Origin: Dyella sp. EPa41
GTDB taxonomy: Bacteria; Pseudomonadota; Gammaproteobacteria; Xanthomonadales; Rhodanobacteraceae
Direction: 5' to 3'
Assembly (NCBI RefSeq): GCF_016586165.1
Contig: NZ_BCPR01000043.1
Span: forward strand, 1 to 37,894
Length of the DNA stretch: 37,894 nt
Below the pieces are notes generated by a model. That model searched no databases and was not told where the DNA came from. It was given only the letters and a program-made list of their open reading frames with translations. Shown piece by piece: positions 19,697-37,075 of the stretch. Positions within the stretch are counted from its first letter, which is position 1. Each line of letters opens with the position of its first letter. The position numbers and the translations under genes are program-made.

Positions 19697-19772
<76 letters not shown>

Positions 19773-19821
19773 TATGCCACAAGGATTTAAGGCCAAATCG
19801 CCTGCAAGTCCCTTGCCTTGT

Positions 19822-19838
19822 GGTACAGTTTCGGTACA
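19822..19838 (+). promoter_or_regulatory. Paired GTACA direct repeat near attL (possible integrase arm site)
   Basis: GGTACA-GTTTC-GGTACA gives two direct repeats 11 bp apart, one helical turn, 50 bp inside attL and 22 bp before the integrase ATG. A matching arrangement, GGTACA-TTGGC-AGTACA, lies near attR (36892-36908). The role as integrase or excisionase binding site, or as integrase operator, is inferred. Confidence 0.4.
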
Positions 19839-19859
19839 TCGCTGGGATGCGGCAGCTTC

Positions 19860-20903
19860 ATGGCAACCCTCGTAAAGACCCCCTCTGGGACGTGGAAGGC
19901 AGTCATCCGTAAGCAGGGATGGCCCACGGCGGCGAAGACTTTCCGCACGAAGCGCGATGCCGAGGACTGGTCGCGCCGCGTCGAGGACGAGATGGTCCGC
20001 GGCGTCTTCATCGAGCGCGGCCCCTCGGAACGGACGAATTTTGGAGCGGCGCTCGATCGCTATCTCGCCGAAGTTACGCCAACCAAGAAGGAATCGACGC
20101 AGCGCGCCGAACGGCTCAAGGCGGTGCCTCTCCGCACCTTCTTCGGCAAGTACTCCCTCGCTGCGGTCAGTCCCGAACTCGTGGCCAAGTACCGTGACCA
20201 CCGCATTGCGGCGGGAAAGAAGCCCAACACGGTCAGGCTCGAACTGGCGCTGGCCAGCCACCTCTTCAACACGGTGATCCGCGAGTGGAGGATCGGCCTC
20301 GTCCAGAATCCCGTGGCCAGCGTCAGGAAGCCAAGTGCGGGAGAAGGGCGTGACCGCAGACTCTCCAGCAGCGAAGAGAAGCGGCTGCGCTCCGCCGTGT
20401 CGGCGTACTCCAACCCGATGCTCCGATGGATCTTCGAGCTAGCCATCGAGACAGGCATGCGATCGTCCGAGATCACCGGCCTGACCATGCGCCAGATCGA
20501 CATCACGCGCCGCATTGTCCGCCTCAGCAAAACCAAGAACGACAACGCGCGCACCGTTCCGCTCACCCAGAAAGCCAAGGACGTCCTCGCAGCGGCACTG
20601 GCGAATCCGGTGAGACCGGATGACTGCGATCTCGTATTTTTTGGTGAGCCGGGAAGAGACGGCAGACGGAGACCGTACAACTTCAACAAGGCATGGCTGG
20701 GCATAAAGGTTCAGCTGGGCCTCGGTGACCTGAGATTCCACGATCTACGCCACGAAGCAGTGAGCCGACTCGTGGAAGGGGGCCTCAGCGACCAGGAGGT
20801 GGCCGCCATCAGCGGGCACAAGTCGATGCAGATGCTCAGGCGCTATACGCACCTGAGGGCCGAAGACCTCGTGAGCCGCCTTGATGATCTGCGCAAGAGG
20901 TAG
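19860..20903 (+). CDS. int: Tyrosine-family site-specific integrase of the island
   Basis: The 347-aa protein (start at MATLVKTPSG; the frame opens 14 codons earlier without support) has an AP2-like arm-binding start (GTWKAVIRKQGWPTAAKTFRTK) and a core SAM-like domain. The catalytic residues are R201 (ETGMRSSEITGL), H294 and R297 (FHDLRHEAVSRL), H320 (ISGHKSM) and Tyr329 (RRYTHL). The set is complete, so it should be active. It lies 87 bases after the tRNA in the same direction, as in P4-like and related islands that integrate at tRNA 3' ends. It should recombine the 46-bp site. Confidence 0.95.
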   Translation: MATLVKTPSGTWKAVIRKQGWPTAAKTFRTKRDAEDWSRRVEDEMVRGVFIERGPSERTNFGAALDRYLAEVTPTKKESTQRAERLKAVPLRTFFGKYSLAAVSPELVAKYRDHRIAAGKKPNTVRLELALASHLFNTVIREWRIGLVQNPVASVRKPSAGEGRDRRLSSSEEKRLRSAVSAYSNPMLRWIFELAIETGMRSSEITGLTMRQIDITRRIVRLSKTKNDNARTVPLTQKAKDVLAAALANPVRPDDCDLVFFGEPGRDGRRRPYNFNKAWLGIKVQLGLGDLRFHDLRHEAVSRLVEGGLSDQEVAAISGHKSMQMLRRYTHLRAEDLVSRLDDLRKR

Positions 20904-21695: not shown

Positions 21696-21707
21696 GCAGC
21701 CTTTTTT
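21687..21707 (+). terminator. Probable intrinsic terminator at the end of the VbhA-like gene
   Basis: GGCCGC-TGA-GCAGCC pairs with one mismatch and is followed by six T residues (21702-21707). The stop codon TGA sits in the loop. The T-run also begins the first hairpin unit of the repeat array downstream. Confidence 0.5.
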
Positions 21708-23517: not shown

Positions 23518-23579
23518 AGGACCATTTTCGGAACAAAGAAGTTGACACTCGGATGATCACGCGTGCGGAGAAGTTCGAC

Positions 23580-24857
23580 ATGGATGTCCGACTGCTCCGG
23601 CCCTTCAAGGGATGTGATCCCGAACTCGCACTCGCCGTCAAAGGCTTCCGCGCGTCGCTCACGCCTTCCCACAGCCTGACCTCGAGGCGATATTCAATCC
23701 GCGGTCTCTTTCGACGTCATCTCGATGAACCATTCGGGCGCATCCTGAAATTGATCAGTAGTTGGCCCGACCTGCGGAGACTCCTGCCAGACCTTTTTTC
23801 AGACGTACTGGTGGAAGGCACAATCAATCATCCTTGGATCCCACTCGGCAAAAGGCCGGTGAAGTCGTTTATTGCCACGGACTTGTCGGAACTTGGGTCT
23901 CCAGTCCGCCCGGTGGGCGTGCTTCCCGACGGAAGATCTGTGTTGAAGGAAGCAACCCGGCCCAACTGGATTGCGGAAGTCGACTGGCGCATCGCGCGGC
24001 TGGCCGTCTGGAATGAGAATGTCCGACAAGTCATCCGAGGCATCGACAAAAAGACACGAGCAGGCGAAGTCACGAACAGCGTCTCCAGGCGCATTGTGGG
24101 TTCGCTGGATACGATGCGAAGCATCCTGGATTTCGTGCGCCGCCGGCGGCCTCTACGAGGGCTCGACATTGACTTCGGCGCGGTGGCTGACGAAAAGCAG
24201 CGAAGACCATCAGAGGCCTTCTGCGAGCTTTGCTGGAGAGTGTCTGCCCGGACAAAAGCACTGAAGGAACTGGGCTGGCCATGGCCCGTGCCAGCCCGCG
24301 TTGCCCGGATCAGTGATCGCTTCTGCGCCGAACACAACCCAAGTGATCCGGGATCTCGATACCGCGCGGATCTTTATTACAAGAAAGCATTCCAGAGAGA
24401 GCTCGCTTCAATGACGAGCATGGTCGAGTCGGAACTCTGGTTGCGATTTCCCGCTCCCCGCGGCGCGGATGAGCAGGAGACGCGGAAGACAGCCTACGAC
24501 ACAGTGCACTCTGGGCTCGTACGTATCCGATCCACGAAGTCTCAACACAGTTCACTGAAAGAGCGGATCTTCGCCCTGTGGAAGAAGGGGCTGTCGCAAG
24601 CAGTCATCGCCAGGGAACTTGGAGTCAGTCGGCAAGCAGTATCGAAGGCGCTGAAAAGCCTTCGCCTTGTCGTAGAAGCAAGGGGCCGCGAAACGCATGT
24701 CAGCCCAACAACTGGCGAACCGTGGGTCAAAGACACCACATTGGAGTTGATCTTTTCCCTTCACCGAAAAGGAAAAGGTGTCGCCGAAATTGCGGGCGAG
24801 GTAGGACATCTGAAGCACACGGTGCGCACCTCGCTGAAGCGACGTGGTGGCGCCTAG
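23580..24857 (+). CDS. Unrecognised 425-aa island protein with Cys/His cluster and two C-terminal HTH motifs
   Basis: I do not recognise this gene. The start MDVRLLRPFKG at 23580 has a GGAGAAG site; an ATG 27 bases upstream lacks one. The first half is basic with no clear domain. Around residues 215-255 the residues CELCWR and later FCAEHNPSDPGSRY form a CxxC...CxxH pattern, suggesting a structural zinc knuckle. The end holds LKERIFALWKKGLSQAVIARELGVSRQAVSKALKSL, a resolvase-type HTH, and a second repeat-like unit, LELIFSLHRKGKGVAEIAGEVGHLKHTVRTSL. It is probably a DNA-binding protein for element maintenance or transcription. It stands alone, divergent from the initiator pair. Confidence 0.75.
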   Translation: MDVRLLRPFKGCDPELALAVKGFRASLTPSHSLTSRRYSIRGLFRRHLDEPFGRILKLISSWPDLRRLLPDLFSDVLVEGTINHPWIPLGKRPVKSFIATDLSELGSPVRPVGVLPDGRSVLKEATRPNWIAEVDWRIARLAVWNENVRQVIRGIDKKTRAGEVTNSVSRRIVGSLDTMRSILDFVRRRRPLRGLDIDFGAVADEKQRRPSEAFCELCWRVSARTKALKELGWPWPVPARVARISDRFCAEHNPSDPGSRYRADLYYKKAFQRELASMTSMVESELWLRFPAPRGADEQETRKTAYDTVHSGLVRIRSTKSQHSSLKERIFALWKKGLSQAVIARELGVSRQAVSKALKSLRLVVEARGRETHVSPTTGEPWVKDTTLELIFSLHRKGKGVAEIAGEVGHLKHTVRTSLKRRGGA

Positions 24858-24964: not shown

Positions 24965-25413
24965 AAGCGGTTGCTTCAACCATGCGTAGTAACCGCTGCG
25001 CTTGACCTTGAGCACACGACACATCGTGACGACGCGAAACCGCTGGCTATGGGCCTGCATGAAGGCGTACTTCGCCCTTACTCCTTGGCAAAGTACGCGG
25101 CGGCCATTTTTAAAATGTCGCGCTCCTCTTCGGCGCGACGCAGCTCGGCGCGAAGTCGAGCGTTCTCCTGCACCAGATCAACGTCCTTCTGGGCCTTGCG
25201 CGCATCGCGGCTGACGCCGCGCTCACGAAGCCATGCATAAAGGCTGTGAACGGACACACCCAGCCGCTCGGACACTTCGGCCACGGGATACCCACGCTCG
25301 CTGACTTGCTTGACCGCCTCGGCCTTGAACTCGTCGGTGAAACGCTTGCTGGTCATAGATCCTCCGATCCTCAATAGACACTATCAGGTGTCTACGGAAT
25401 CGGGGGTGTACCA
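24965..25413 (-). mobile_element. IS3-family insertion sequence remnant, right part deleted
   Basis: The element keeps its upstream end (TGGTACACCCCCGATTCCG on the minus strand, ending at 25413), orfA and the first residues of orfB, YAFMQAHSQRFRVVTMCRVL then KRSGYYAWLKQPL, after which IS sequence stops near 24965. The DDE catalytic part and the other terminal repeat are lost, so it cannot move. A small stem-loop, CAGAGATC-GGC-GATCTCTG (25434-25452), lies just outside the surviving end. Confidence 0.85.
25078..25356 (-). CDS. IS3-family transposase OrfA
   Basis: The 92-aa protein MTSKRFTDEFKAEAVKQVSE..., with GYPVAEVSERLGVSVHSLYAWL as HTH and a C-terminal leucine-zipper-like LVQENARLRAELRRAEEERDIL plus AAAYFAKE, is a complete IS3 OrfA. 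It would normally join OrfB by -1 frameshifting near its end, but OrfB is truncated here. It is probably only a relic. If still expressed, it could bind related IS ends. Confidence 0.9.
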   Translation of the reverse strand: MTSKRFTDEFKAEAVKQVSERGYPVAEVSERLGVSVHSLYAWLRERGVSRDARKAQKDVDLVQENARLRAELRRAEEERDILKMAAAYFAKE

Positions 25414-25649
25414 GTAGCCGGGTAGCACTCAAGCAGAGATCGGCGATCTCTGGCAGACGAAGGCAACTCCAACCCCGAGCCCCGCTCCTGCCAAGCAGAC
25501 CGAAGCCCTTCCCTGTCTCGTTACATGGGACTAACAGCGGCACGCGCAAAGTGATCTCAGGGAGCGTGGAATCATCCTCCTTGCTGCCCCAATCACCATC
25601 TAGCAGACACCTCTCGAACCATCTCTGCCTTAACAGCAGGAGCAGAACC

Positions 25650-25871
25650 ATGTCTAAGTCACGCCAAGATTTACGCGGCTTGCTAAGCCGGGTGGATGTA
25701 ACGGTATCTGTGTTGCGTACTAAATACCCCAAGGACAAGGAGTTTTTTGAATCTACCGACGGGGTCTTTTCTGATGTCCTGGCGCAATCCAGTCGTGAGG
25801 ACGAGGATTGGGTGCGGGGGATGATCGATTGGATCTGCACTCGTCACCGCATGCCCTATCCGGCAGCCTAG
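25650..25871 (+). CDS. Small acidic protein, family C member 1
   Basis: This 73-aa protein starts behind a good AGGAG site (25638-25642). It belongs to a two-member family with the convergent gene at 25966-26265: both read R(Q/R)DL, then about 20 residues later (Y/F)P, and exactly 27 residues after that Pro a DW (EDEDWVRGMIDW here, DDHDWITCQINA there). Phe and Asp lie between at matching places. It is predicted all helical, with no signal or membrane segment. I know of no function. Its placement suggests it is one of the cargo genes of the island's small-protein cluster. Confidence 0.6.
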   Translation: MSKSRQDLRGLLSRVDVTVSVLRTKYPKDKEFFESTDGVFSDVLAQSSREDEDWVRGMIDWICTRHRMPYPAA

Positions 25872-25965
25872 TCATCCTCTTGTGGCCGAACACAAGGAAG
25901 CCTTGAGCGCCCAGCGAAGGCTCGCGGGGCTTGTGCCCGCACCAGATGGATATTCATCCGAGCCG

Positions 25966-26265
25966 TTAGCGGACGAGTATTCCGCGAGCTTCCAACATGG
26001 CGTTGATCTGGCAGGTGATCCAGTCGTGGTCGTCAGGCCCGGCAGCATCGAAAATCAAGTCAGCCAGCCCGGCGAAGGCCGACAAGAGGTCCGCTGGATC
26101 GGGAAACTCTTGTAGCAGGCGAGGCAACTGCACCATGAGTCGATTGAGCTGGACCTGTTCAAGGTCGCGGCGGTGGAGCTTCGACGTGGGCTCGTCGCCG
26201 GCGACAGGGTGGAGCGTCGCGGGTAGAACCAAATGACCGACCAAATGAATATCGTTCGACGTCAT
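25966..26265 (-). CDS. Small protein, family C member 2
   Basis: The 99-aa frame runs convergent to its paralogue at 25650. The conserved part is HRRDLEQVQLNRL, QEFPDPADLLSAFAGLADLI and DDHDWITCQINAMLEARGI. The distance from Pro to Trp is identical to that in family C member 1. The start is uncertain: the ATG at 26265 has no strong ribosome site, and the first 25 residues have no counterpart in the paralogue. It is followed upstream in the same direction by family B member 1, 28 bases away, so the two are likely co-transcribed. The function is unknown. Confidence 0.55.
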   Translation of the reverse strand: MTSNDIHLVGHLVLPATLHPVAGDEPTSKLHRRDLEQVQLNRLMVQLPRLLQEFPDPADLLSAFAGLADLIFDAAGPDDHDWITCQINAMLEARGILVR

Positions 26266-26293
26266 GTGACGGGTACCATGTTGCCATCGTCAG

Positions 26294-26551
26294 CTAGGAA
26301 TGCGGTGCGATGAATCGCCTATCGTGACCACCGAGAACAGCAGTCACCATAAGGCGCCCCCTTCGCGTGATGTCCACGTTGTAAAGCATCCGGCCGGTAA
26401 CCGCGGCACCGTCCAGCGCTCCAACGGCCTCAATCAGGTTATCAGCCATAAGGCGGTCGGCACTGGCCAGCGGCATGCTCAGTAGCTCACCGTAGCTGAG
26501 CGAGAACAGGTAGTTGACGTCGTCCTGCTGCAACCCGGCACCGATAGGCAT
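26294..26551 (-). CDS. Small wHTH-like protein, family B member 1
   Basis: This 85-aa protein has a GGAGGAC ribosome site. It aligns without gaps over its full length to the 85-aa product at 29126-29383, with 53 identical residues by hand count. The shared core is QDD(V/I)NYLFSLSY, ELL.MP.ASADRLMA, V.LDGA and ITRRGR.MV. The helix-helix-strand order with a basic turn looks like a winged helix, but this is only a shape argument. The two copies lie in opposite orientation as the outer pair of an inverted duplication. The function is unknown. Confidence 0.75.
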   Translation of the reverse strand: MPIGAGLQQDDVNYLFSLSYGELLSMPLASADRLMADNLIEAVGALDGAAVTGRMLYNVDITRRGRLMVTAVLGGHDRRFIAPHS

Positions 26552-26887
26552 TACGTCCTCCAGAATCTCCGAGCGGATTTACCCTACGCCAACCAGAGGA
26601 ACGGGACCGTTAAGGTCTTGAGATCCGAAGCGCGCGTCGCCATGCGCGATAGCCAATGTGGCTCGCCCGACGCCGTGAACACGCCAGAAGACGATGGCAC
26701 CAATGCTCGCGGGTACCGATATCCGCGTTGGGTCTAAGGCACATCCAAGTGACAGAGACAAACAGACCGGAACGGAACAGCCCCGGCCTTGAGCTTCTTC
26801 TCAACGCAACGCGCACGCAGCCAATGGCGAAACGAGTCGCGCCGCTCGGTGGTCCATAACCGCATAGAATTGGACCCACCACCAGAG
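26552..26887. other. No convincing gene
   Basis: A minus-strand frame of 60 codons (26579-26761) and a longer overlapping one have no usual start, no ribosome site and no recognisable motif. The stretch could be untranslated leader of the family B gene or decayed sequence. Confidence 0.4.
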
Positions 26888-27049
26888 TCAATCTCGTTGA
26901 CCGACGGTCTGCGTCGATGCATTCACTGCGTATTGAAGCGTCTTTTGAACCGCTTCCTCCTGCACACCATCAGCATCGATTCTGAGCAACTCTTCATCCA
27001 GAGCAAGCAACTCGTCAACAAGCTGCGATCTTGTCATGGCCATATGCAT
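26888..27049 (-). CDS. Small helical protein, third frame of a coupled mini-operon
   Basis: The 53-aa frame MHMAMTRSQLVDELLALDEE... to TQTVGQRD starts inside the stop of the preceding frame (TAATG at 27047-27051), a classic coupling signal. The residues are acidic and helical, with heptad-like leucines (LVDELLALDEELLRID). I do not recognise it. The precise stop-start joints with the two frames upstream argue that it is translated, but its length makes this uncertain. Confidence 0.45.
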   Translation of the reverse strand: MHMAMTRSQLVDELLALDEELLRIDADGVQEEAVQKTLQYAVNASTQTVGQRD

Positions 27050-27225
27050 TACCGCCGCCCGATTTCCGTGAGCGCGTAAATAAACTTGCGCCATAAGCTG
27101 GTTGCCCGTGGCGATCGCTCCTGATGCATGAGGTGTAGCTCTTCAATGGAGGGCGCATGCTGATACTCGCCCCTGCGGAACGGACGGAAGAAGTATCTCA
27201 ACCTTTCGGCAGCACCCTTGATCAT
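27049..27225 (-). CDS. Small basic protein, second frame of a coupled mini-operon
   Basis: The 58-aa frame MIKGAAERLRYFFRPFRRGE... to FIYALTEIGRR starts by an ATGA overlap with the truncated fasciclin frame, and its stop overlaps the next start. It has basic amphipathic ends and no signal peptide. I know of no family. It could be a genuine gene joined to a fasciclin-like first gene in the ancestor, or a frame kept by chance after deletion of the fasciclin body. Confidence 0.45.
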   Translation of the reverse strand: MIKGAAERLRYFFRPFRRGEYQHAPSIEELHLMHQERSPRATSLWRKFIYALTEIGRR

Positions 27226-27308
27226 CGCCCGCCGCCTTGCCTGGCGGCCGCTGTGTCGACGAGCTTCTTGCTACCAGCGCTAGAGAGGCTGGCTTCGTTG
27301 TTGGACAT
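27222..27308 (-). pseudogene. Beheaded second fasciclin copy (first 24 codons only)
   Basis: The 28-residue frame MSNNEASLSSAGSKKLVDTA... aligns without gaps to the start of the fasciclin protein at 31769-32221; Lys14, Val17 and the Thr-Ala-Ala-Ala at 19-22 coincide. It then runs into unrelated GGGR and a stop. The DNA upstream also matches: a segment of about 127 bases recurs in front of both starts at nearly the same distance. It is therefore the promoter-leader and head of a second fasciclin gene whose body was deleted. Confidence 0.7.
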
Positions 27309-27363
27309 GATAATTCGATTTCACTATTAGGGGTCCGCGACAAGGATCCATAGCGGACAAAAT

Positions 27364-27490
27364 CCGCGACTCCAATGCAGATCGGAGAGGTACTCAGAGG
27401 GCGTCAGGAACAAGACCGCGTGACTGAGACGTCTGCCAGGGAGGAGACTTTCTATCCTAGCGTCCAAGCAGCATGCGCTTGTAGTTGTTA
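27364..27490 (-). repeat. Conserved leader repeat, copy 1 (before the truncated fasciclin)
   Basis: The 127 bases match 32271-32398 at about 80% by eye, with blocks such as GACTGAGACG, GGAGGAGACTT and GCAGCATGCGC. The match ends abruptly at TAACAAC (minus strand). The conserved distance to the start codon suggests promoter or 5' untranslated control sequence and not a random repeat. Confidence 0.75.
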
Positions 27491-27611
27491 CATGATGGTG
27501 ATCTGGCGCAGGCCACGGCTATGAAGGGATGGCAGCTGAAGATAAGCCAACACAAGCGACCGACTGCGGCATCGATGGCCAGCCATGAGGAATGTCCGCT
27601 CAGGCTTGCGA

Positions 27612-27930
27612 CTTCAGTCGGTCCTTGCAACACATTGTTGGAATCATTCGGCCGGTGTTTCGAAATTGAGCATCTCTGCCTTGGTCGCTCATTCAACTCC
27701 CGAGCCAGGGCATTGAGTTTAGCCCGTGAGGTCCGCGCCCTTGGGGAAGTACTGGCGAAGCAGGCCGTTGGTATTCTCGTTCGATCCCCACTGCCATGGA
27801 TTTTGCGGGTCGAAGAAGTAGACCTGGATACCGGTTGCCAGCGTGAAGCGCTGATGGTCCGCCATCTCCTTGCCGCGACCACAGGTCAGTGACTTGTACA
27901 GTTCACGAGGCATAGTGTGCTGCGTCGACC
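27612..27930 (-). pseudogene. IS30-family transposase remnant (C-terminal part)
   Basis: MPRELYKSLTCGRGKEMADHQRFT then FFDPQNPWQWGSNENTNGLLRQYFPKGADL is the C-terminal catalytic part of IS30 transposases, including the final Glu of the DDE triad (NENTNGLL). After ADL the frame shifts, continuing as LNALARELNERPRQ, and then again as LNFETPAE*FQQCVA with stops. The N-terminal two thirds and both terminal repeats are missing. It cannot be functional. Confidence 0.85.
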
Positions 27931-28088
27931 GACTGAAGTCGCACTCGAAGACAGACGTTGCTTGCCTTCCGAACGATCCTTTGCGCGATACCCATACTCA
28001 TGGCGCTACGGAGCGTCACATCATCATCAGACAACACTGGTAAGTCAGCGACAGAAAGAGCCGGGCGGCGACGGCGAGCGCATGGCGG

Positions 28089-28313
28089 CTACGCTCCAAA
28101 TGTGAGTAAGGGAGCAATGCGGCTTTGCACCAGGGCGTGGATGAAAGCGCTATCCAGGACTGCAATGTGCGAAGCCTGCAGTAGCTCACCACCCATTTCT
28201 CCTTGAAATTCACCGTCTCTCCAAAGCAGTGCGCGCCAGACTGCGTAATCTCGACGCGTCGTATAGGAGCCTTCGTAACTGTAGGGGCCAAACACGCCAC
28301 GTAGAATCGTCAT
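28089..28313 (-). CDS. Small protein, family A member 1
   Basis: The 74-aa frame starts at MTILRGVFGPYSYEGSY behind AGAGGA; an ATG 24 bases upstream is less likely. It matches the 73-aa products at 28791 and 33554 in its N-terminal two thirds: YEGxY, then VWxA, R(D/S)GxFxG and a Gly three to four residues on, with one single-residue gap. It is the most diverged member. It lies head to head with family A member 2. The short strands separated by Gly suggest a small beta-rich domain. The function is unknown. Confidence 0.6.
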   Translation of the reverse strand: MTILRGVFGPYSYEGSYTTRRDYAVWRALLWRDGEFQGEMGGELLQASHIAVLDSAFIHALVQSRIAPLLTFGA

Positions 28314-28790
28314 TTGGATCCTCTCCACAAACCGCAACGGGCGATATCTCTTCCAGCAATGGGCGCTCTGTCGGAGTCATCCCAGACTAGCCGCCCCAAG
28401 ATCCTCCGCTGCGGCGAATGGCAAGTCCATACGCCATCAAGTCGATCTTTTTGGCCTAGCTTCATGCTTGCCTACGGATTCTAATGATTGCTGATTGCTA
28501 CCCCGCACTCGTACAGACAACTGGCGCCACGGCGGTGGCTAAGAACTGACCGCATTTTGGACTCGCCCCTTTGCCAGGCGTCCCGACGTCCCCTCAGCTC
28601 TGGCGTCCGTGCCGACTGCACACGTATGCCCGTTGGCGTGCTTGCGGCACACGGACATGTCAGGTTTTACCGACGCCGGTTCGACGGCTGTGTATGTTTG
28701 GAACCGCACAGATGGATAGTCGTCCAGAAGACAGCATGGCATTTGGTGCGAATTGGGTGCGAATTGGGGTATGCCATGTCTGATGAGGCC
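28314..28790. other. Divergent intergenic region between family A members 1 and 2
   Basis: About 480 bases without a supported gene. A plus-strand frame covers part of it but has no ribosome site and low coding character. The region should hold both divergent promoters, and its midpoint is the axis of the B1-A1 / A2-B2 mirror arrangement. The heptamer-like GTGCGAATTGGG is repeated just before member 2 (about 28748-28770). Confidence 0.5.
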
Positions 28791-29012
28791 ATGTCTGAGC
28801 TTGCCGGTATCACGGGCAACGGTTTCGACTACACGGCGACGTACGCCACAGCTGCCCAGGACAGCGTGGTCTGGGCAGCCACTTATCGTCGGAAAGGCGA
28901 CTGTCATGGTGTACGCCATGGTCGGGTATTTCACGTTGCTGCACTGACGCAGCGGGGCCTTCAGACTGCCCTTATGGTGGACATCGAGCGATCCTTGGGA
29001 GACAAGCCCTGA
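28791..29012 (+). CDS. Small protein, family A member 2
   Basis: The 73-aa frame starts at MSELAGITGNGFDYTATY behind GATGAGG; this start is chosen because it aligns residue for residue with the 73-aa paralogue at 33554. Twenty-six of 73 residues are identical with no gap, among them GNGF.Y, Y, V.W.AT.RR.G...G.RHGR and DIE. A start 15 bases upstream is possible. It is the inner plus-strand member of the inverted duplication and is followed by family B member 2. The function is unknown. Confidence 0.7.
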   Translation: MSELAGITGNGFDYTATYATAAQDSVVWAATYRRKGDCHGVRHGRVFHVAALTQRGLQTALMVDIERSLGDKP

Positions 29013-29125
29013 GGTACTAGCCAAGGGAGGCGTCAGAGGTTTGGCCAATGGCTATGTTGCGTGCCGTACAGAAGTCGCACGAGTCTTCAATCAAGCTTGC
29101 TTTTAACGTGTTTGAGGTTTTGGCC

Positions 29126-29383
29126 ATGCCCGCAGACGACAGTCTGAGACAGGATGACATCAACTACTTGTTCTCCCTCAGCTACAGCGAGTTGCTGAAT
29201 ATGCCGATGGCTAGTGCCGATAGGCTAATGGCACAGGACTTGGTTGAGCCGGTTGGTTCGCTTGATGGCGCCAACGTTAACGGTATGGCGGACTACCATG
29301 TTGGCATTACACGAAGGGGACGCGGCATGGTGTCTGCCGTGCGCATGGGGCGTGAGCCTCGATTCGTTGAGCCACGCCCGTAA
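29126..29383 (+). CDS. Small wHTH-like protein, family B member 2
   Basis: The 85-aa protein starts at MPADDSLRQDD; the frame is open 26 codons further, but equal length with its paralogue at 26294 fixes this start. GAGG lies 13 bases upstream. SYSELLNMPMASADRLMAQDL could be a helix-turn-helix and YHVGITRRGRGMV a wing. With family A member 2 it forms a likely plus-strand pair 113 bases apart, the mirror image of B1 and A1. The function is unknown. Confidence 0.75.
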   Translation: MPADDSLRQDDINYLFSLSYSELLNMPMASADRLMAQDLVEPVGSLDGANVNGMADYHVGITRRGRGMVSAVRMGREPRFVEPRP

Positions 29384-29862
29384 GTTTCGGGGATGTGACT
29401 TGATCACAGTGACACCTCCCCGCAATGGGTGTCTATTACCTGTGATCCTGCATTCGCTGTCTTACGGCGGTCCTAGGGTCCTAGAGGTCACAGGAGGCGC
29501 CGAAGCTGATATCGCAGCTGCGGCATGCACCCATGTCTCTAGCCCAAGGGTGCCACAGTCGGCTCCTTAGCCGACAAGGAAGAGAGGCCAGCCACGCGCC
29601 CGCTTGCAGACAGCCATTTCAACTCCGAATCGTGATTCATGCCGGTTTGGCGACTTGAGTGCGGTCTCGCAACTGACCCGCGATAACAAGCTGAGGGTGC
29701 AGAGCGCGCCCTCTTCTGTCCCTGCATACCGACGAACACGCCAGGAGCCAGCATCGCTACCCAAGCGCGATGGGTTCAGGAGACTTGCCGTACTGGATCC
29801 CCCTTCCGCGAAACAGAGCAGCAGGGTGCTAAAATCTGCCAAAGGGCACGATGAGGACAGGT
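29384..29862 (+). other. Intergenic region upstream of the Crp/Fnr-type gene
   Basis: No gene is supported. It contains a stem-loop, GTCGGCT-CCTT-AGCCGAC (29558-29575), without a T-run, and a likely -10 TAAAAT near 29830, about 30 bases before the regulator start. A TTGATCACAGTGACACC near 29400 resembles the TGATCAC sites at 24876-24904. Confidence 0.45.
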
Positions 29863-30579
29863 ATGGCTGCTGTTCCCGACCCGAGGCAGAACCGGCTGCT
29901 TGCGGCGTTGCCAGATGCCGAATGGGCTCGATGGGCCTTGCACCTTGAGCCTGTCGATATGCCGCTCGGCAAGGTGCTGTACGAGTCCGGCAGCCGACTA
30001 AGCCATGTGTATTTTCCGACGACCTCAATCATTTCACTGCTGTATGTGATGGAAGACGGTGCCTCGGCCGAGATCGCTGTGGTCGGCAATGAGGGCATCG
30101 TCGGCATTTCGCTGTTCATGGGCGGCGAATCCACGCCGAGCCGGGCACTGGTCCAGAGCGCTGGCCAAGGGTTTCGGTTGAAGGCGAGCCTTATGCTGCG
30201 GGAGTTCAACCGCGCGGGACCTGTACTTCATCTGCTGCTGCGATACACCCAGGCGCTTATCACCCAAATGTCGCAGACGGCGGTGTGCAATCGCCACCAT
30301 TCGTTGGACCAGCAGCTGTGCCGCTGGCTGCTACTAAGCCTCGATCGCCTGCATTCTATGGAGTTGGTGATGACACAGGAGCTCATCGCCAACATGCTGG
30401 GTGTCCGCCGCGAAGGTGTTACCGAGGCGGCGGGCAACCTACAGCAGGCAGGGCTGATTCGCTACCAGCGAGGGCATATCACCGTGCTGGATCGCGCGGG
30501 ACTCGAGAAACGGACCTGCGAGTGCTATGCCGTGGTCAAGAAGGAGTATGACCGCCTTCTGCCATCACCCACGACCTGA
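29863..30579 (+). CDS. Crp/Fnr-family transcriptional regulator
   Basis: The 238-aa protein has a cyclic-nucleotide-binding-like beta-roll (LGKVLYESGSRLSHVYFPTTSIISLL through EIAVVGNEGIVGISLFMGG) and a C-terminal HTH_Crp domain (MTQELIANMLGVRREGVTEAAGNLQQAGLIRYQRGHITVLDR). The phosphate-binding cassette of true CRP is not conserved and no Fnr cysteines are seen, so the signal is unknown. Similar proteins with PTTSIISLL occur widely in Burkholderiales and Xanthomonadales. The ATG at 29863 has GAGGACA in front; one four codons upstream lacks this. As the main regulator in the right part of the island, it may control the small genes around it. Confidence 0.88.
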   Translation: MAAVPDPRQNRLLAALPDAEWARWALHLEPVDMPLGKVLYESGSRLSHVYFPTTSIISLLYVMEDGASAEIAVVGNEGIVGISLFMGGESTPSRALVQSAGQGFRLKASLMLREFNRAGPVLHLLLRYTQALITQMSQTAVCNRHHSLDQQLCRWLLLSLDRLHSMELVMTQELIANMLGVRREGVTEAAGNLQQAGLIRYQRGHITVLDRAGLEKRTCECYAVVKKEYDRLLPSPTT

Positions 30580-30799
30580 GCCCCAATTCCAGCGTGATCC
30601 GCGAAGCCCCCAATAAACTGCGCTGAGCGACCGCTCTTTCAGAAATGGTGATGGCGGGTTTTACTGCCAAGGCCGCGCTACTTCAAACGAGCGTCGGCGC
30701 ATCACTGCGGAACGCGCGGCGCACCAAGGTGTGTCGCGTCCCTTTCAGGGTGCCTTGCGGGGTGGCCGCTCATTCGAGCATCCGCGTTCAACGGCAGCC

Positions 30800-31030
30800 T
30801 CATTCGACTGTATAGGCTGCGCTGGCGATGCCACCCTGTTCACTGTGGATGTCGCGATAGGCCCGCCCCAGGGATCGCTCTACCGAACGAATCTGCATTG
30901 CACCCGAGGGGTGTCGCATCAGCTCAAGGCGCAGCAAATCGTTCTCTTTCTGCACTCGTTGATTCTGATCGAGCAGGACATCAAAGTCCCTCAGAAGGTT
31001 GTTGGCGCTTAGATGTGGATCCGTGGTCAT
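30800..31030 (-). CDS. Small coiled-coil-like hypothetical protein
   Basis: I do not recognise this gene. The start MTTDPHLSANNLLRDFDVLL is chosen for its strong TGAGGTG site; the frame is open upstream to MLRHRLESFRESL at 31177, which would give 125 aa. The 76-aa form has heptad-like VLLDQNQRVQKENDLLRLELM and a tail RSVERSLGRAYRDIHSEQ. There is no signal peptide or membrane helix. It is divergent from the gene at 31211. The size matches the other small genes of the cluster. Confidence 0.5.
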   Translation of the reverse strand: MTTDPHLSANNLLRDFDVLLDQNQRVQKENDLLRLELMRHPSGAMQIRSVERSLGRAYRDIHSEQGGIASAAYTVE

Positions 31031-31210
31031 GGCGCACCTCAGTAGTTCGAAGTCGTGTTGCCGTCCATGCATTAGCAGGATGTCCAGCCGCCGTTGCGCA
31101 GTAATTTGCCAGATTTCTCGCCTGACGTTACGCGTATTGAGGCTCTCACGGAACGATTCCAGGCGATGACGTAGCATGGCCACGCGTATTGCCAACGAGG
31201 ATATCCGAGT

Positions 31211-31687
31211 ATGTCCAACCTCATTGTTGCTAAATTTGATAGTCAGTTTGCAGCCGCGTCTGTCATCAACAAGCTGTTGGCAAGGGGCGTGCGACGCGCG
31301 CATGTGCTGGCTTGTGTGGATGAGAGCGTAGGAAACTCAGCCGCAAGTTCAAGTGCGCCGACAACGGTTGTGTCCCATATCAGTCATCAGGGTCACCGAG
31401 CAGGCCAGAAAGCATCGGAATTTCGATCACCAAGCCATCTTCCCGGACCGGCACAGATGGGCCACACTGTGGTTACGGTGGCGTTGGACGATGAGATGCC
31501 TGTTGACGATGTTCGTCATCTCATGGAGCTCGTTGGCGCGACATCGATTGAACTGCTGGATGCAAGCGTCCCCACAGAGAATCCGCTCTTGTGGCCGGAA
31601 TACAGCACCGGCTCTGCCGTGGATGTCGAGCGAGCTATTTGTGCCACGAGAGGTAGTGACGCCCTAGGGCGGCACTCTCGGCACTAG
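31211..31687 (+). CDS. Stress-protein-like hypothetical protein with two alpha/beta half-domains
   Basis: The 158-aa product begins SNLIVAKFDSQFAAASVINKLLARGVRRAHV, a beta-alpha unit like that of YflT/general-stress-17M type proteins. It ends with GHTVVTVALDDEMPVDDVRHLMELVGATSIELL, a second such unit. Between them is a Ser/His-rich linker where related proteins usually have a glycine-zipper membrane segment; that segment is missing here. It may be a trimmed member of that family. It runs convergent to the fasciclin gene, with a strong hairpin between the two stops. The family call is tentative. Confidence 0.5.
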   Translation: MSNLIVAKFDSQFAAASVINKLLARGVRRAHVLACVDESVGNSAASSSAPTTVVSHISHQGHRAGQKASEFRSPSHLPGPAQMGHTVVTVALDDEMPVDDVRHLMELVGATSIELLDASVPTENPLLWPEYSTGSAVDVERAICATRGSDALGRHSRH

Positions 31688-31730
31688 CCTCTTCCAGGCA
31701 AGTGGCATCCGACCCCATATCCGTATGGCG

Positions 31731-31760
31731 TCTTGTGGTGGGGCGGACCCCACCACAAGA
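31731..31760. terminator. Perfect 13-bp hairpin between convergent genes
   Basis: TCTTGTGGTGGGG-CGGA-CCCCACCACAAGA has a perfect stem and a tetraloop. It lies 43 bases past the plus-strand stop and nine bases past the fasciclin stop. There is no T-run on either side, so it would be a Rho-independent pause at best, or an mRNA 3'-end stabiliser. Confidence 0.6.
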
Positions 31761-31768
31761 TCCTGTCG

Positions 31769-32221
31769 TTAGTGCTTAGTGGGCACGATCACCGCATCGA
31801 TCGCATGGATGATGCCGTTGCTCGACGCGATGTCCGGCCCCGTGATGGTGGCGCCGCCAATGCTGAGCTTGTCACCGTCCTTTGTGATCGCTGCAGTCTG
31901 GCCCTGCAGCATCTTCGGCGCGGTCAGTTTCCCGACCTCAACGACCGATGCCCGGCCCGGCAGCACGTGGTACTTCAGTACAGAGATCAACTCTGCTTTG
32001 TTTTCTGGCTTCAGCCAGTTTTCCAGTGTGCCCTTCGGGAGTTTTTTGAACGCCGCATCCGTCGGCGCAAACACGGTGTAAGGGCCCGTACCTTTCAGGA
32101 CGTTGGTGAGCCCTGCCGCTTCGAGAGCCTTGCTAAGCGTATGGAACGAGCCGTTGGCGGCTGCTGTCTCGACGATGTTCTTGCCAGGAACGCGAGAAAT
32201 GTTGGAATCATGAATGGACAT
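31769..32221 (-). CDS. Fasciclin (FAS1) domain protein without signal peptide
   Basis: The 150-aa protein is one FAS1 domain: NIVETAAANGSFHTLSKALEAAGL, TVFAPTDAAFKKLPKGTLENWL (H1 motif), VLKYHVLPGRAS and ASSNGIIHAIDAVIVP (H2 motif). FAS1 domains mediate adhesion or, in some bacteria, act in periplasmic stress roles. Most bacterial members are secreted, but this one starts MSIHDSNISR with no signal peptide, so it may be cytoplasmic or exported in another way. Its leader (32271-32398) is repeated before a truncated second copy near 27.3 kb. The domain call is firm. Confidence 0.92.
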   Translation of the reverse strand: MSIHDSNISRVPGKNIVETAAANGSFHTLSKALEAAGLTNVLKGTGPYTVFAPTDAAFKKLPKGTLENWLKPENKAELISVLKYHVLPGRASVVEVGKLTAPKMLQGQTAAITKDGDKLSIGGATITGPDIASSNGIIHAIDAVIVPTKH

Positions 32222-32270
32222 GAATTTGCCTTGAGTTGTGATCCGCGTGGCGGATTTGGAGCGACCGAAG

Positions 32271-32398
32271 CCGCGACCTCCGATGCAGACCGGAGAAGAA
32301 CTCAGATGGCGTTAGGGAGAGGACCGCGTAACTGAGACGCCTGCCAAGGAGGAGACTTGCTTTCCTGGCGCCCGAGCAGCATGCGCGTGTGGTTGTTA
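32271..32398 (-). repeat. Conserved leader repeat, copy 2 (before the fasciclin gene)
   Basis: The 128 bases begin about 50 bases before the fasciclin start and match 27364-27490 at about 80% by eye. On the minus strand it begins TAACAACCACACGCGCATGC. It probably contains the fasciclin promoter and untranslated region. Outside these limits the two loci are unrelated. The rest of 32399-32778 holds no supported gene. Confidence 0.75.
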
Positions 32399-32778
32399 GC
32401 TGAGAGTGATGTGCCTGAATGAGCCAGGCGAGATGCCCGGCGTACTGGGCTCCATCGCTCCATAGGCAATGCAATACAAAGCAACTCTCATTCGTCCGTT
32501 CAATAGGGCGATCGAGTGATCACACACCTTCTAAGTCGACGCCCCAAGACATGGCGAAAGAACCGACACAATTGTCTGTCGACAGACCGCACGTCCTCGT
32601 CACAGTGAGTGGCGCACGCTCGCCGGGCGCTGAATCTTCTGACACTCATCCCCCGCGCCTCAATCGCGCGTCACTTTCCCTGACGCCCTTTGATTCATCT
32701 CCGGTTCTTGTCTTGCTGGAGTTGCGGACTGCGGTCCGCCTACGCTCGTTTGACGCGAGCCATACTCCAGGTGAATTT

Positions 32779-33006
32779 ATGAACGGCGTGTATTTCATTC
32801 CTCCCAGGCTCTATGACCGCCAATGCCCCGATCGGTGGCTGCCCGGCTATTACAGCGCTGCCTACGTGGTGCGCCAGGAGGTCGCAGATCTCAGCTCAAT
32901 TCGATGGTTGAAAGTGCCGATGCACGTGAAAGCAGGTGAGCAACAACGAGGCGCGACTTCGATGAAAGTCGGGCCGGCAACCTGGCGGAACATTACAGCG
33001 GCATAA
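32779..33006 (+). CDS. Small protein, family D member 1
   Basis: The 75-aa frame MNGVYFIPPRLYDRQCPDRW... starts behind AGGTGA (32768-32773). A longer frame reaches back to 32419 but has no ribosome site. It shares with the next gene an N-terminal motif: YFxPxxL, then after a variable gap (D/N)RW(L/F)PGY. The rest (VVRQEVADLSSIRWLKVPMHV) is unique. No membrane or signal segment is seen. Similarity is limited to about 25 residues, so common origin is likely but not certain. The function is unknown. Confidence 0.55.
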   Translation: MNGVYFIPPRLYDRQCPDRWLPGYYSAAYVVRQEVADLSSIRWLKVPMHVKAGEQQRGATSMKVGPATWRNITAA

Positions 33007-33180
33007 CAGAAGATGGCGCATGTTGATCGTGCACCGGGGCTTCGTTAGACCCGCTTCGGCTGCCTCAGACTATCTGTAGTTTTTCTTGCAAGGCCTCTGA
33101 GTTTTCTCCGCCTTGGCCGGAGCCGCGGGCTAGCGCTTGCTTAGACCTGAGGGATGCAGGTCGACACTCGAGGCAACTCC

Positions 33181-33459
33181 ATGTACATCATCAATCAAAC
33201 GAATTCGCTCTACTTCCACCCTCATAAGCTGCACTTCCAGCCCCTTTCCGAGGCTGTAGACAACGAGCAGCGCAATCGCTGGTTTCCGGGGTACGACGCA
33301 TCGGTGGCCTCGCCGCGAGCCAAGGCTACAGCACGACGAAGTGAAGTCGTGCCGAAGGTCGACTTGCTGGAGTCCCCCAAAAACCGCCTAGACCTGGACG
33401 CCGATCGTATGGACGACGACGGTGCGCCCTGCCTAAACGCTGAGCTTGCCAATCGCTGA
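33181..33459 (+). CDS. Small protein, family D member 2
   Basis: The 92-aa frame begins MYIINQTNSLYFHPHKLHFQ, with GAGG upstream of ATG 33181. SLYFHPHKL and RNRWFPGYDAS match the YFxPxxL...RWxPGY motif of the gene just upstream. The C-terminal half is charged and low in order (ESPKNRLDLDADRMDDDG). It is followed 94 bases on by family A member 3 in the same direction, so the three plus-strand genes 32779-33775 may form one unit. Confidence 0.55.
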   Translation: MYIINQTNSLYFHPHKLHFQPLSEAVDNEQRNRWFPGYDASVASPRAKATARRSEVVPKVDLLESPKNRLDLDADRMDDDGAPCLNAELANR

Positions 33460-33553
33460 CGGTAGTCGCTGGCCAACAACGCTCGACCTTTCCACGCCGG
33501 CCCCCATCCAGGGACGGAAGGCGCAAAGAGGATCTACCCCAAAGGAAGCCATC

Positions 33554-33775
33554 ATGACCAGTATTTCCGGCAAGACCACCAACGGCTTTACGTACGAAGG
33601 TGATTACGAGCGCGCCAACCCTGATCGCGTCACGTGGACCGCCACCTTCCGGCGTAGCGGCATCTTCTTCGGCATGCGACATGGACGCATCAACGAACTT
33701 CTGGGCGTTCCGGACGGCGAGATCAACGAGGCCGTTCAGGATGACATTGAGTTTGCGTGGGTCCAAACCAGCTAG
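33554..33775 (+). CDS. Small protein, family A member 3
   Basis: The 73-aa frame MTSISGKTTNGFTYEGDYER... has an AGGAAG site and the same length as family A member 2, aligning without gaps (26 identities). The motif NGF(T/D)Y...Y...D.V.W.AT(F/Y)RR.G...G.RHGR identifies the family; the tail has DDIE in common. It lies 4.5 kb from the other two members, in the D1-D2-A3 string. Conservation of length and motif through strong sequence drift suggests that the family is under selection. The function is unknown. Confidence 0.7.
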   Translation: MTSISGKTTNGFTYEGDYERANPDRVTWTATFRRSGIFFGMRHGRINELLGVPDGEINEAVQDDIEFAWVQTS

Positions 33776-33939
33776 GTGCCTTTCTAACTGCATGACGAGG
33801 GTGCATCCCTTTCCTCCAACACTGGCGAGTTGCTGCCGGCTGGATGGCTGATCATCGAATTGATGACGAGGTTTGCCTCGCCTGAGCTACAGGTTCCATC
33901 ATCTTTCCCGGCCCCAACGATGATGGAAATCCAGCTTGC

Positions 33940-34383
33940 CTACTTGCACGCCTCGCCAGCGCTGTGCGACATGCTCGAGTAGCGGCTGAAGGTATCGCGA
34001 ACATCGCGATATTCGCTTACGCAGCCATCACTGGGTTCGGGACTTATGGCACAGCGCGCCAATTGATTGGACGCTTGCTCCAGTCGGATGGACGCTGCAC
34101 AGGCATCCTTGCGGTCGTGCAGGCTGCCTCCAGGGGTGGAATTTGTCGAGGGTGGCATAGTCGACCTTCCATCTCCCAACATGGACATGCGCTTATCTGC
34201 GACGAAGGCTGCACACCCCTCGCTGAAAGACTCGGATATACCGACGCAGGTCGAAGTGTTGTCGACGTCATGTATTTGAGCCCAGAGATAACCTCGATGG
34301 TACTCATCCGTTGAGCTCGTCTGCTGCGCCCAACACGTCGAGGGGGCCCCCAGGAGGAAGGCGGCGGCAACGAGCACTTTCAT
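33940..34383 (-). CDS. Secreted six-cysteine hypothetical protein
   Basis: The 147-aa product starts MKVLVAAAFLLGAPSTCWAQ, a Sec signal peptide with likely cleavage after WA (residue 19). AGAGGA lies upstream. The mature part has EYHRGYLWAQIHDVDNTSTC, then SESFSEGCAAFV, which I have seen as a GYxWAxxxxIxxxxxC...SFxxGCxAYV pattern in unnamed island proteins. Six cysteines in the mature chain (TC, GC, AC, RC, GC, AC) could give three disulfides. It should be periplasmic or extracellular. A frame upstream of this start is open but unsupported. The function is unknown. Confidence 0.7.
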   Translation of the reverse strand: MKVLVAAAFLLGAPSTCWAQQTSSTDEYHRGYLWAQIHDVDNTSTCVGISESFSEGCAAFVADKRMSMLGDGRSTMPPSTNSTPGGSLHDRKDACAASIRLEQASNQLARCAISPEPSDGCVSEYRDVRDTFSRYSSMSHSAGEACK

Positions 34384-35464
34384 GATGCTAGTCCTCTGAT
34401 ACAGGCAGGCCGTCGTAGGCGGTCGTCGTGTCTTGCAAGGTCGGTCATCGCAAAGATATCGACACCTTGGGCAAGGTGGTTGCATGCGAAGCCATCCCCT
34501 TAGGCCTCAGCGGGCAGAGTGAAGGCGCGTGTCACGGCCTTACCAAATGCGCTTTCTTGACGGCGCAGCCAGCAAACCGAGATGAAATCCCTGGTCATCT
34601 CCGGGGCTGTTGTGATCCTGCTTCAACGTAGTGAGTTGCTTCGGTGGCGGGACTAGAATCCACACACAGCCAGAACCCGCGGACTACCTTCGATCCGAAA
34701 TTCTTGTGTCGTCGCAACGCCCGCTTCCGGCCAAAGGCGGACATTGCCCGAGCTCAGGCAACGGAGACGCTTCCCTGGCGCTCAGGGAGCTGCCGTGCAC
34801 GGCTCTCCCGCAGCTCAAAGTTGCAACCAATCTCTCTTCGATGGTTGGCCATCCGCTGCCGACCGCCAAGCGCACGCCTGACAGCCACACCCACCCATGC
34901 AAGGATCGAGACAACCGGATCTACATCGACATGGCACAAGTCGAGACGCTCCCTTGCGTACTAGAAAGAATTCGGCAAGGTCAAAGAATCCCTTCGTTGC
35001 CCTATAGCGAAGCAGGCCTTCCGCGGTCGGATCGGGATTCGCCGTCATATTCGTATGACTCCCTGTGTGGGACACCCATCATACGGCTACGTCTGTTACT
35101 TATTCAGTTGGCGGACGCCAACGGCGCGCCGAGATCCTCGAAAGAGGCAGGGCAGTCCGCCACGTGCGTTTCGGGTCGATGGTGCTGAAAATGCCTGGCC
35201 AAGAAAAATGGGGCGCGAATTATCGCGCGCGGCGCCCACGACGGTTCGATTCTTCGAGATGTTTCGCATCGAACTCGCCGGGAAGCGATTGTCGTGGCCG
35301 ATGCTTCGGGCTTCGGGCTTCGAGAGGCCCGAAATTTCGGAAGCGATTTTTTCGACACTATCGGTTGGACGCAGGCGTTAGCGCCGTCAAATGCCCGCGC
35401 TCGAACGAGAAACCATCTCCGCAAGACACCCTGAAAGCGGGCGCTTCGGGGCAGAGGTGCCTGC
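34384..35464. other. Long stretch without a supported gene
   Basis: Several open frames cross the region on both strands (for example 34815-35075 minus and 34631-35188 plus), but none combines a ribosome site, a family motif and sensible composition. A minus-strand run, TANPDPTAEGLLRYRATKG then FFDLAEFFLV, followed after a frame change by VVSILAWVGVAVRRALGG, could be a decayed membrane protein. GCCCGCTTCCGGCC-AAAGGCGGAC near 34720-34745 resembles a dispersed proteobacterial repeat. Confidence 0.4.
35312..35333 (+). repeat. Hairpin TTCGGGC...GCCCGAA resembling the left-end array
   Basis: TTCGGGC-TTCGAGAG-GCCCGAA is followed by ATTTCGG, as the left-end units are followed by AAATTTCG. A weaker inverted repeat, GTTCGAT...ATCGAAC (35244-35274), lies 40 bases before it. 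This may be a relic of the same repeat family at the right side of the island. Confidence 0.4.
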
Positions 35465-36043: not shown

Positions 36044-36340
36044 TATCCCGACGATAGAAAAGTCCTGTCCTGGGATGTGTCGGTGTATCCAAAAAACCGG
36101 TACGCCGCCGACGCCAAGTATGCCACCACGGGCGACCTGCTGAAGTTTGCCCATGCCCTGTTCGCTGGCCGGCTGATCGCGCCCGAAACGTTGCAACAGA
36201 TGATTAAGCCCGGGCTGGACGAGTACAGTGACGGCCTGTGGTCCTACCAGCTCACCGCCAAGGGTGCCAAACATTCGGTGATCAAGCGACCCGGACTCAT
36301 CATGGACGCGCAGGCGCGCCCGCCGAAGCGGGGGTCGTGA
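36044..36340 (+). pseudogene. Serine hydrolase (beta-lactamase class C-like) C-terminal fragment
   Basis: After an in-frame TAG (36041-36043) the frame reads YPDDRKVLSWDVSVYPKNRY, YATTGDLLKFAHALFAGRLI and PETLQQMIKPGLDEYSDGLW, then KHSVIKRPG. This is the late part of class C beta-lactamase/serine hydrolase proteins (ATTGDLLKF, GLW, and a K-H-x-x-K-R-P-G near the usual KTG-like motif). The N-terminal SxxK catalytic part is missing, and the end runs into an antisense transposase fragment (DAQARPPKRGS). It is a relic. Confidence 0.75.
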
Positions 36341-37029: not shown

Positions 37030-37075
37030 ACTCATAATCCCTTGGTTCCAGGTTCGAATCCTGGTGGGCCCACCA
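37030..37075 (+). other. attR: right attachment site
   Basis: The 46 bases repeat the tRNA 3' half (19727-19772) with one difference in the T loop (A at 37058 for G at 19755), through the CCA. Bases upstream do not continue the tRNA, so this is a duplicated end and not a second gene. It marks the right limit of the island; the following 244 bases hold no gene. Confidence 0.93.

Follow-up and report, generated by a model that had tools for sequence, protein, structure and literature searches.

Riboswitches and other structured 5' leaders of bacteria are multi-helix RNAs with covarying base pairs, which lie just 5' of a ribosome-binding site and occur before several operons of one function. In Pho-box-like promoters, the targets of OmpR/PhoB-family regulators, two half-sites spaced 11 bp apart take the place of the -35 element. 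Both kinds of element have a counterpart in the window, which is the whole 37,894-nt stretch of DNA analyzed here (contig NZ_BCPR01000043.1 of Dyella sp. EPa41, family Rhodanobacteraceae), where a cluster of small genes surrounds a fasciclin gene, fas (25650-33775; all coordinates are relative to the whole window). A leader RNA in this cluster shares the features of the described leaders, although the leaders tested match none of the 4227 families of Rfam 15. The promoter in front of it likewise has two half-sites 11 bp apart instead of a -35 element, but its half-site is TNAC and its regulator is putative.

The main downstream gene, fas, encodes a single FAS1 domain, as do other FAS1 (fasciclin) proteins (PF02469; 115.5 bits against a cut-off of 22, E 2.2e-33). 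Nevertheless, no signal peptide was evident by eye in its product, and neither three of the genus's more divergent FAS1 paralogues (best E 0.33) nor three plasmid FAS1 genes (Microvirga, Vibrio and Sinorhizobium, from 171 plasmid records that matched the fas protein, all at less than 60% identity) had a significant leader. A plasmid search with the fas leader itself gave no match. Among the open-access papers listed in literature searches, none described a fasciclin leader RNA; a fasciclin gene is reported to be upregulated in Stenotrophomonas rhizophila cocultured with cyanobacteria (PMC5359482).

Sequence comparison shows a promoter motif, an RNA secondary structure backed by compensatory changes, and an association of both with fas, with the small-protein genes D and, at a single locus, with C1. 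We consider it likely that the leader represents a new class of cis-regulatory RNA which, together with a shared activator, defines a fasciclin regulon extended to small-protein operons in the Rhodanobacteraceae. The cluster would then be an island-borne, expanded form of a regulon that is present in two families of the order, the second of which appears to be the Lysobacteraceae/Xanthomonadaceae. The first-pass annotation had described the cluster and its families, which are confirmed, and had overlooked two genes, E and F, along with the conserved upstream elements; the main discovery is the leader RNA and promoter that these genes share. Since the RNA class combines a clear fold with a strong promoter signature and a single partner gene that hardly varies, standard probing and reporter methods can be used to look for its signal. 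The leader also provides a handle on the role of FAS1 proteins without evident secretion signals in these bacteria, and would tie otherwise featureless small proteins into one regulon.

Structure of the leader RNA

The leader, ~146 nt long with five hairpins, is found before fas, the truncated second copy of fas (the remnant), D1 and D2, and extends to the ribosome-binding site. The upstream regions of fas, the remnant and D1 resembled one another in a repeat search, and long blocks are conserved in the upstream regions of 30 fas and 17 D genes. As judged from the alignments, the leader has a conserved secondary structure with compensatory changes and lies on the sense strand, between a conserved motif that marks the putative promoter and the start codon of related genes. 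The consensus order is P1, P2, P3, P4, P5, AAGG and start codon. P2 consists of CUCAG/CUGAG, conserved at 79-100% per position in both families, with an inner GCG/CGC, and the P4 loop often reads UUCG (by eye).

The fas set (A5, 29 rows) and the D set (A8, 15 rows) were aligned by MAFFT alone, without structure. In these alignments, 97.6% and 91.8% of the cells paired, as compared to 36-45% and 28-44% in slid controls; the structures were read off the same alignments and are thus favored against the slid versions. Two-sided changes were observed at 10 of 34 pairs in A5 (shuffles, 2.8) and at 11 of 32 in A8 (shuffles, 4.2). Pairing was found in 89.2% of the cells of the second-family set (A11; slid controls 30-42%) and in 92.9% of those of A15, a set of 92 leaders, 88 of them distinct (slid controls 34-39%). 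In A15, 31 of 34 pairs carried two-sided changes, and 418 two-sided cells were counted against 115 in shuffles. The ratio of G-U to A-C cells was 65:10 in A5, 39:10 in A8, 161:37 in A10 and 58:25 in A11. Because this excess of 2.3- to 6.5-fold runs through four sets, the folded strand is taken to be the sense RNA.

Several observations weigh against a confident reading of this structure. One of five measures in A8 (further pair types) was matched by 56 of 500 shuffles, and shuffles of A15 likewise yielded 22 pairs with two-sided changes, as compared to the 31 observed. The structures and the pair counts come from one and the same alignments, and sets A9-A11 and A15 were in addition fitted to the model. 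The Rhodanobacteraceae sequences are related, which makes their agreement non-independent, and the pair counts ignore kinship. The minimum free energy z-scores of single leaders were modest (+0.8 to -2.8 for 11 leaders), and single-sequence minimum free energy structures often depart from the consensus.

A pseudoknot in which the 3' arm of P1 (GGCGU) would join with the ACGCC that precedes CUGAG was considered separately. It pairs in 93.8% of the cells with zero two-sided change and is therefore not claimed.

Genes and genera that carry the leader

A covariance model built from 26 fas leaders only (R1) was run on 42 sources. Outside its training set, it recovered 11 of 16 D2-type upstream regions (E 5e-4 to 1e-12), D1-type leaders in five loci together with two D1-like copies (E 3e-9 to 4e-15), one C1 leader (E 1.9e-14) and the leader of the remnant (E 3.4e-28). 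The leader search of the window's own genome gave five significant matches, all inside two fas clusters, and two more at E 0.55 and 0.75. A leader was directly upstream of fas at 31 of 33 matches (28 of 30 distinct loci), of D at 16 of 20 (14 of 18) and of C1 at 2 of 10 (1 of 8), and none of A, B, C2, E, F, hp158 and crp had one in this position. No five-hairpin leader was found behind the promoter motif of C1 in the window. One further R1 match, L121:4391-4546(-) with an E-value of 7.2e-15, had no gene assigned directly downstream.

The exceptions count against a uniform association. R1 missed five of the 16 D2-type upstream regions (L121, L126, L134, L138 and L140), and two of the 33 fas matches are without a leader, although in one of these, L069, a leader lies ~80 nt further upstream. 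The leader is also missing at 4 of the 20 D matches and at seven of the eight distinct C1 loci.

Beyond the genus, a search of 398 genomes of the order with R2 matched 21, the window's own included. Four of these belonged to the second family, with E-values of 7e-5 to 8e-4 and a fas start codon 8-12 nt downstream in all four. Among 277 second-family genomes searched with R3, 31 were matched, at 34 places with E <=0.01. Four places were known beforehand, and of the 30 new ones, 27 were retrieved and examined; in 26 of the 27, fas lay immediately downstream on the same strand. The sole exception, L209 (leader 1501-1645, - strand), has a 66-amino-acid open reading frame (ORF) downstream instead. 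The E-values in the second family are individually weak (1.6e-8 to 9e-3), which also detracts from the proposed regulon, and its case in this family rests on the downstream gene. In samples of the class (369 genomes) and the phylum (388 genomes), leader matches were found only inside the order, under strict filters that lose weak matches. The samples searched place the leader in about 20 genera, five in the window's family and 15 in the second. When Rfam 15 was compared with the window, only tRNA exceeded its gathering cut-off, and the leaders remained unmatched at E <=5 within 25000-34600 and at E <=1 in six loci of both families. A sub-threshold match to COG2908 RNA at 33954-33987 (-), with 19.8 bits against a cut-off of 58.7, is probably due to chance.

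These distributions bear on the idea that the element acts at the DNA level only, as a promoter plus a folded recombination site similar to attC, or as protein-binding DNA, with no role as RNA. The attC sites of integrons consist of a GTTRRRY core paired with RYYYAAC and lie downstream of each gene. TAAC and, in some D leaders, GTTAGAC do resemble attC cores (by eye), and compensatory changes are also possible in folded single-stranded DNA. Nevertheless, we regard a pure DNA element as very improbable: its position, which ends at the ribosome site of the following gene, is constant, all four sets contain more G-U than A-C cells on the sense strand, the same gene rather than varied cassettes follows in 26 of 27 loci, and GTTRRRY is not conserved in the aligned leaders (by eye). 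An array of integron cassettes was rejected on this last ground and because the element is located 5' of the genes.

The shared promoter and candidate modes of control

The promoter TNAC-N7-TNAC-GCGCANNNT is common to fas, the remnant, D2 and the leaderless C1, i.e. to four sites in the window. The full pattern (repeat, GCGCA, T) was present in 53 of 61 and 22 of 25 unique leader upstreams, as compared to ~0 in shuffles; the set of 61 includes four second-family rows. A spacing of 7 between the half-sites was observed in 54 of 61 and 25 of 25 unique upstreams, and spacings of 3-6 and 8-12 in 0-5. The eight failures among the 61 comprise six D1 or D1-like upstreams and two second-family rows, and the lack of the pattern before D1 is a point against a single regulon. 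Across 660 kb of loci selected because they hold these families, the pattern matched 63 times, 50 times with a leader (23 before fas, 12 before D, one each before F and C1, and 13 without a gene assigned by the script). Of the other 13 matches, six precede C1, one precedes D with a decayed leader, one precedes F, one is at a contig end and four are unassigned. The motif precedes C1 in L128, L129, L131, L137 and L141 as well.

Two bases of CAT, the C and the A, are invariant in A5, as is the T three positions further on. These bases fit the -11 and -7 positions of the -10 element consensus, which would have transcription begin at the base of the first hairpin, P1. A 26-codon ORF that starts at GCGCATGCTG and in many fas leaders ends at CTGA might suggest a leader-peptide attenuator. 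Of 29 fas leaders given, 27 could be anchored (the remnant and L052 were not properly anchored), and an intact ORF of 25-26 amino acids is present in 10 of them. However, the ATG is lost in six, an early stop occurs in eight and the stop is absent in three, and GCGCA is better explained as the -10 region. With the ORF disrupted in so many fas leaders, the leader peptide was rejected as extremely improbable.

The first-pass annotation had proposed that these genes, with a Crp/Fnr-type regulator in their midst, are co-regulated and perhaps have a stress, surface or defence function. Co-regulation is borne out by the leader before fas, the remnant, D1 and D2 and by the promoter motif before fas, the remnant, D2 and C1; control by the Crp-type protein is not. 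A crp gene does lie inside the cluster, but it is found in only 7 of 41 large loci (these were picked via A, B, C1 or fas matches, so that co-occurrence is a biased estimate). The shared site is an 11-bp direct repeat, and no palindromic Crp-type site was seen by eye among the conserved promoter features. Moreover, the second family retains promoter and leader with no crp match near fas in 27 loci (flanks of ~1.5 kb; a crp gene elsewhere in these genomes is possible). A search of PADLOC with nine cluster proteins (A2, A3, B2, C1, C2 and D2 among them; A1, B1, D1, E and F lay outside the search) gave no match to a defence family, so that a role in defence is not supported; five weak matches (E 0.002-0.03) concerned the helix-turn-helix part of a 434-amino-acid protein. 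Taken as a whole, a Crp/Fnr-regulated small-protein system is improbable. One would expect the activator to be conserved in both families, a point against the Crp-like protein and against B, and it is probably an OmpR/PhoB-type regulator encoded elsewhere.

Under a fasciclin regulon, most leader-bearing operons would start at an activator-type promoter, in which TNAC-N7-TNAC replaces the -35 element and is followed by GCGCA with the -10-like CANNNT, with D1 as the deviation. The mRNA would open with the ~146-nt RNA of five hairpins, up to the ribosome-binding site. This leader may fold on the nascent mRNA and control translation under a common trans signal, either a small ligand or an RNA-binding protein; control at the translational level is suggested by the constant end at the ribosome site and by the lack of an evident U-run (by eye). 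The FAS1 protein, in which no signal peptide is evident, and the small proteins would be the products and would act jointly in one response.

A candidate switch in the Rhodanobacteraceae involves the 3' strand of helix 2 (GCC..UGAG): were it to pair with the ribosome-binding region (CUCAAGGC or CUCGAGGC), helix 2 could not form. This pairing of the P2 3' strand beats 95% of shuffles in 61% of the 62 leaders of A10, as compared to 10% for a 5' control segment. In the second family the figure is 8% of 25 leaders, which is no enrichment and counts against the proposal: as stated, the switch is not conserved. It is plausible for the one family and speculative for the other.

The nature of the trans signal can be approached from the same features. 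An RNA thermometer, or a leader bound by a protein of the CsrA/RsmA, Hfq or S1 type, would tie translation to stress or growth phase; such control is a serious contender, though short of probable. The near-invariant CUCAG/CUGAG suggests a sequence-specific contact, and fas leaders have a pyrimidine-rich P2 loop and AGGA in P1 (by eye), but the D leaders are without AGGA in P1 and the ribosome site lies outside any conserved local hairpin (both by eye). Alternatively, the leader might bind a small molecule or ion directly, with the fas regulon responding, as an orphan riboswitch. The conserved multi-helix architecture with its near-invariant P2 sequence, the possible ribosome-site pairing in one family and the several copies per genome before linked genes are consistent with this. 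However, the genes behind the leader offer no metabolic hint, strong conservation in both families is limited to three unpaired positions, of which two belong to the ribosome site, and matches are confined to one order in the samples searched, so that we entertain an orphan riboswitch only tentatively. The more specific proposal, an undescribed Lysobacterales riboswitch class whose ligand would control translation of intracellular FAS1 proteins and, in the Rhodanobacteraceae, of island-spread small proteins, appears doubtful on the present comparisons.

Small-protein families and the genomic island

The ORFs named in the first-pass annotation all exist, and their coordinates are accurate. Families A-D are true paralogues, as judged by pairwise identities and profile-profile comparison. 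A2 and A3 are 36% identical, and A1 is 26-27% identical to either; the values are 62% for B1/B2 and 25% for both C1/C2 and D1/D2. Profile-profile comparison gave E-values of 1.6e-4 (C1-C2), 1.8e-5 (D1-D2) and 2.9e-5 (A1-A), as compared to 0.16-0.58 for four unrelated control pairs. The earlier suggestion of selection rather than recent copying agrees with pairwise dN/dS values (one method, few pairs) well below 1 for A (0.00-0.25), B (0.07-0.13), C1 (0.13-0.16), C2 (0.26-0.30) and D2 (0.29-0.37); D1 is unclear (0.30 and 0.90). Families A-D thus appear to be mostly under purifying selection. The value for F was 0.31 and that for E, which in part overlaps F, 0.40-0.42.

The truncated second fasciclin copy is likewise present: the remnant retains its leader and ~28 codons and then runs into gene F, with its stop codon overlapping the F start (ATGA). 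The 3' end of its leader is decayed (by eye). The second module in the window has lost most of its fas, hence the truncated copy.

Synteny is conserved in Dyella and relatives. Two modules are found repeatedly: hp158-fas-D-A, in which fas is divergent, and fas-F-E-B-C2-C1. D is accompanied by A in 16 of 16 D-bearing large loci, and hp158 by both fas and D in all nine large loci that have it. A was found in 13 of 20 genus genomes and 54 of 197 family genomes, and B in 8 of 20 genus genomes and 2 of 250 order genomes (the window's own included); plasmid searches with B2 and A3 gave no match. The window's own genome holds a second cluster (C1:73-76 kb) with A, fas (80%), F, E and the C1 gene (78%). 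In a Dyella-group genome, L134 5790-8502 contains four A-family genes in 2.7 kb, a local expansion of A. D. jiangningensis SBZ 3-12 (CP007444.1; L008 and L009) has two cluster copies, at ~0.21 and ~5.26 Mb of 5.40 Mb, which give the same BLAST matches; with 9% contamination in this genome, the duplication may be an assembly matter.

The families have no known role, as previously stated, in that no curated family matched at a convincing score: neither A1-A3, B1, B2, C1, C2, D1 and D2 against Pfam and NCBIfam, nor A2, A3, B2, C1, C2 and D2 against PHROGs, nor E and F against Pfam. The best curated match was DUF7529, a weak one to 3 of 24 A members (best E 0.0017). An AlphaFold2 model of A3 has four strands and a helix (pLDDT 90.9). 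Its fold had no significant match among PDB structures, and no PDB sequence matched the 24-row A profile; Pur-alpha, Mgm101 and a guide-RNA-binding protein were among the insignificant structural matches and serve as a lead only. The model of B (pLDDT 66) has the order helix-helix-helix-strand-strand-helix of MarR/PadR winged-helix regulators, the class to which most of its weak Foldseek matches belong. B is only 85 amino acids long, however, with a best E of 0.15 (not significant) and no sequence-family match, and the model points weakly to a minimal winged helix. The existence of hp167 as a gene is doubted; it overlaps hp158 on the opposite strand, and the L132 alignment contains a stop-codon error.

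That these genes are island cargo is supported by the tRNA-Met att site, the 46-bp repeat of the tRNA 3' end and a tyrosine integrase; both marks of a genomic island, a tRNA att direct repeat and an integrase, are thus present. The island spans 17.3 kb between the tRNA and the repeat, with a GC content of 56-62% as compared to 64-70% to its left. The features are listed in Table 1.

Table 1. Features of the island and of the small-gene cluster, in window coordinates
Feature	Positions	Strand	Evidence
tRNA-Met, left att of island	19697..19772	+	
Tyrosine integrase	19818..20903	+	PF00589 E 2.7e-30
Right att, 46-bp copy of tRNA 3' end	37030..37075	+	direct repeat, 98% identical
C1 promoter motif	25521..25552	+	regex
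C1, 73 aa	25650..25871	+	
C2 (homology starts ~26244)	25966..26265	-	
B1, 85 aa	26294..26551	-	
Gene E, 68 aa, overlaps F	26888..27094	-	homologues in 10/41 large loci
Gene F, 58 aa, overlaps E	27049..27225	-	homologues in 11/41 large loci
Truncated fas, ~28 codons	27222..27308	-	read directly in sequence; repeat search
Leader RNA of truncated fas	27321..27466	-	cmsearch R1 109.7 bits, E 3.4e-28, outside training set
Promoter of remnant fas operon	27470..27501	-	regex
A1, 74 aa, divergent member	28089..28313	-	85% identical homologue in L147; dN/dS 0.21
A2, 73 aa	28791..29012	+	
B2, 85 aa	29126..29383	+	
Crp/Fnr-type regulator	29851..30579	+	HTH_Crp_2 E 8.6e-16; in 7/41 large loci
hp158, conserved beside fas	31211..31687	+	dN/dS 0.15-0.21; 9/41 large loci
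fas, fasciclin (FAS1) gene, 150 aa	31769..32221	-	Pfam PF02469 E 2.2e-33; dN/dS 0.11-0.13
Five-hairpin leader RNA of fas	32229..32374	-	cmsearch R1 159.5 bits (in training set); covariation
fas promoter: TCAC-N7-TAAC direct repeat, then GCGCATGCT (-10-like)	32378..32409	-	regex
Leader RNA of D1	32624..32771	+	R1 E 1.7e-10, outside training set
D1, 75 aa, least certain coding status	32779..33006	+	
D2 promoter, overlapping D1 end	32993..33024	+	regex
Leader RNA of D2	33028..33173	+	R1 E 9.9e-6, outside training set; R2 83.8 bits
D2, 92 aa	33181..33459	+	
A3, 73 aa, four strands and a helix	33554..33775	+	AlphaFold2 pLDDT 90.9

Elsewhere in the window, the 434-amino-acid protein mentioned above (23553-24857, +) carries a helix-turn-helix at its C-terminus (HTH_38, E 9.8e-10); its N-terminal part gave no match. 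ORFs that read by eye like pieces of IS3-type transposases flank the small-gene cluster at 25078-25374 (-) and 36244-36777 (-). Imperfect 97-nt direct repeats with 44-nt sub-repeats are located at 21684-22118, between the integrase and the helix-turn-helix genes.

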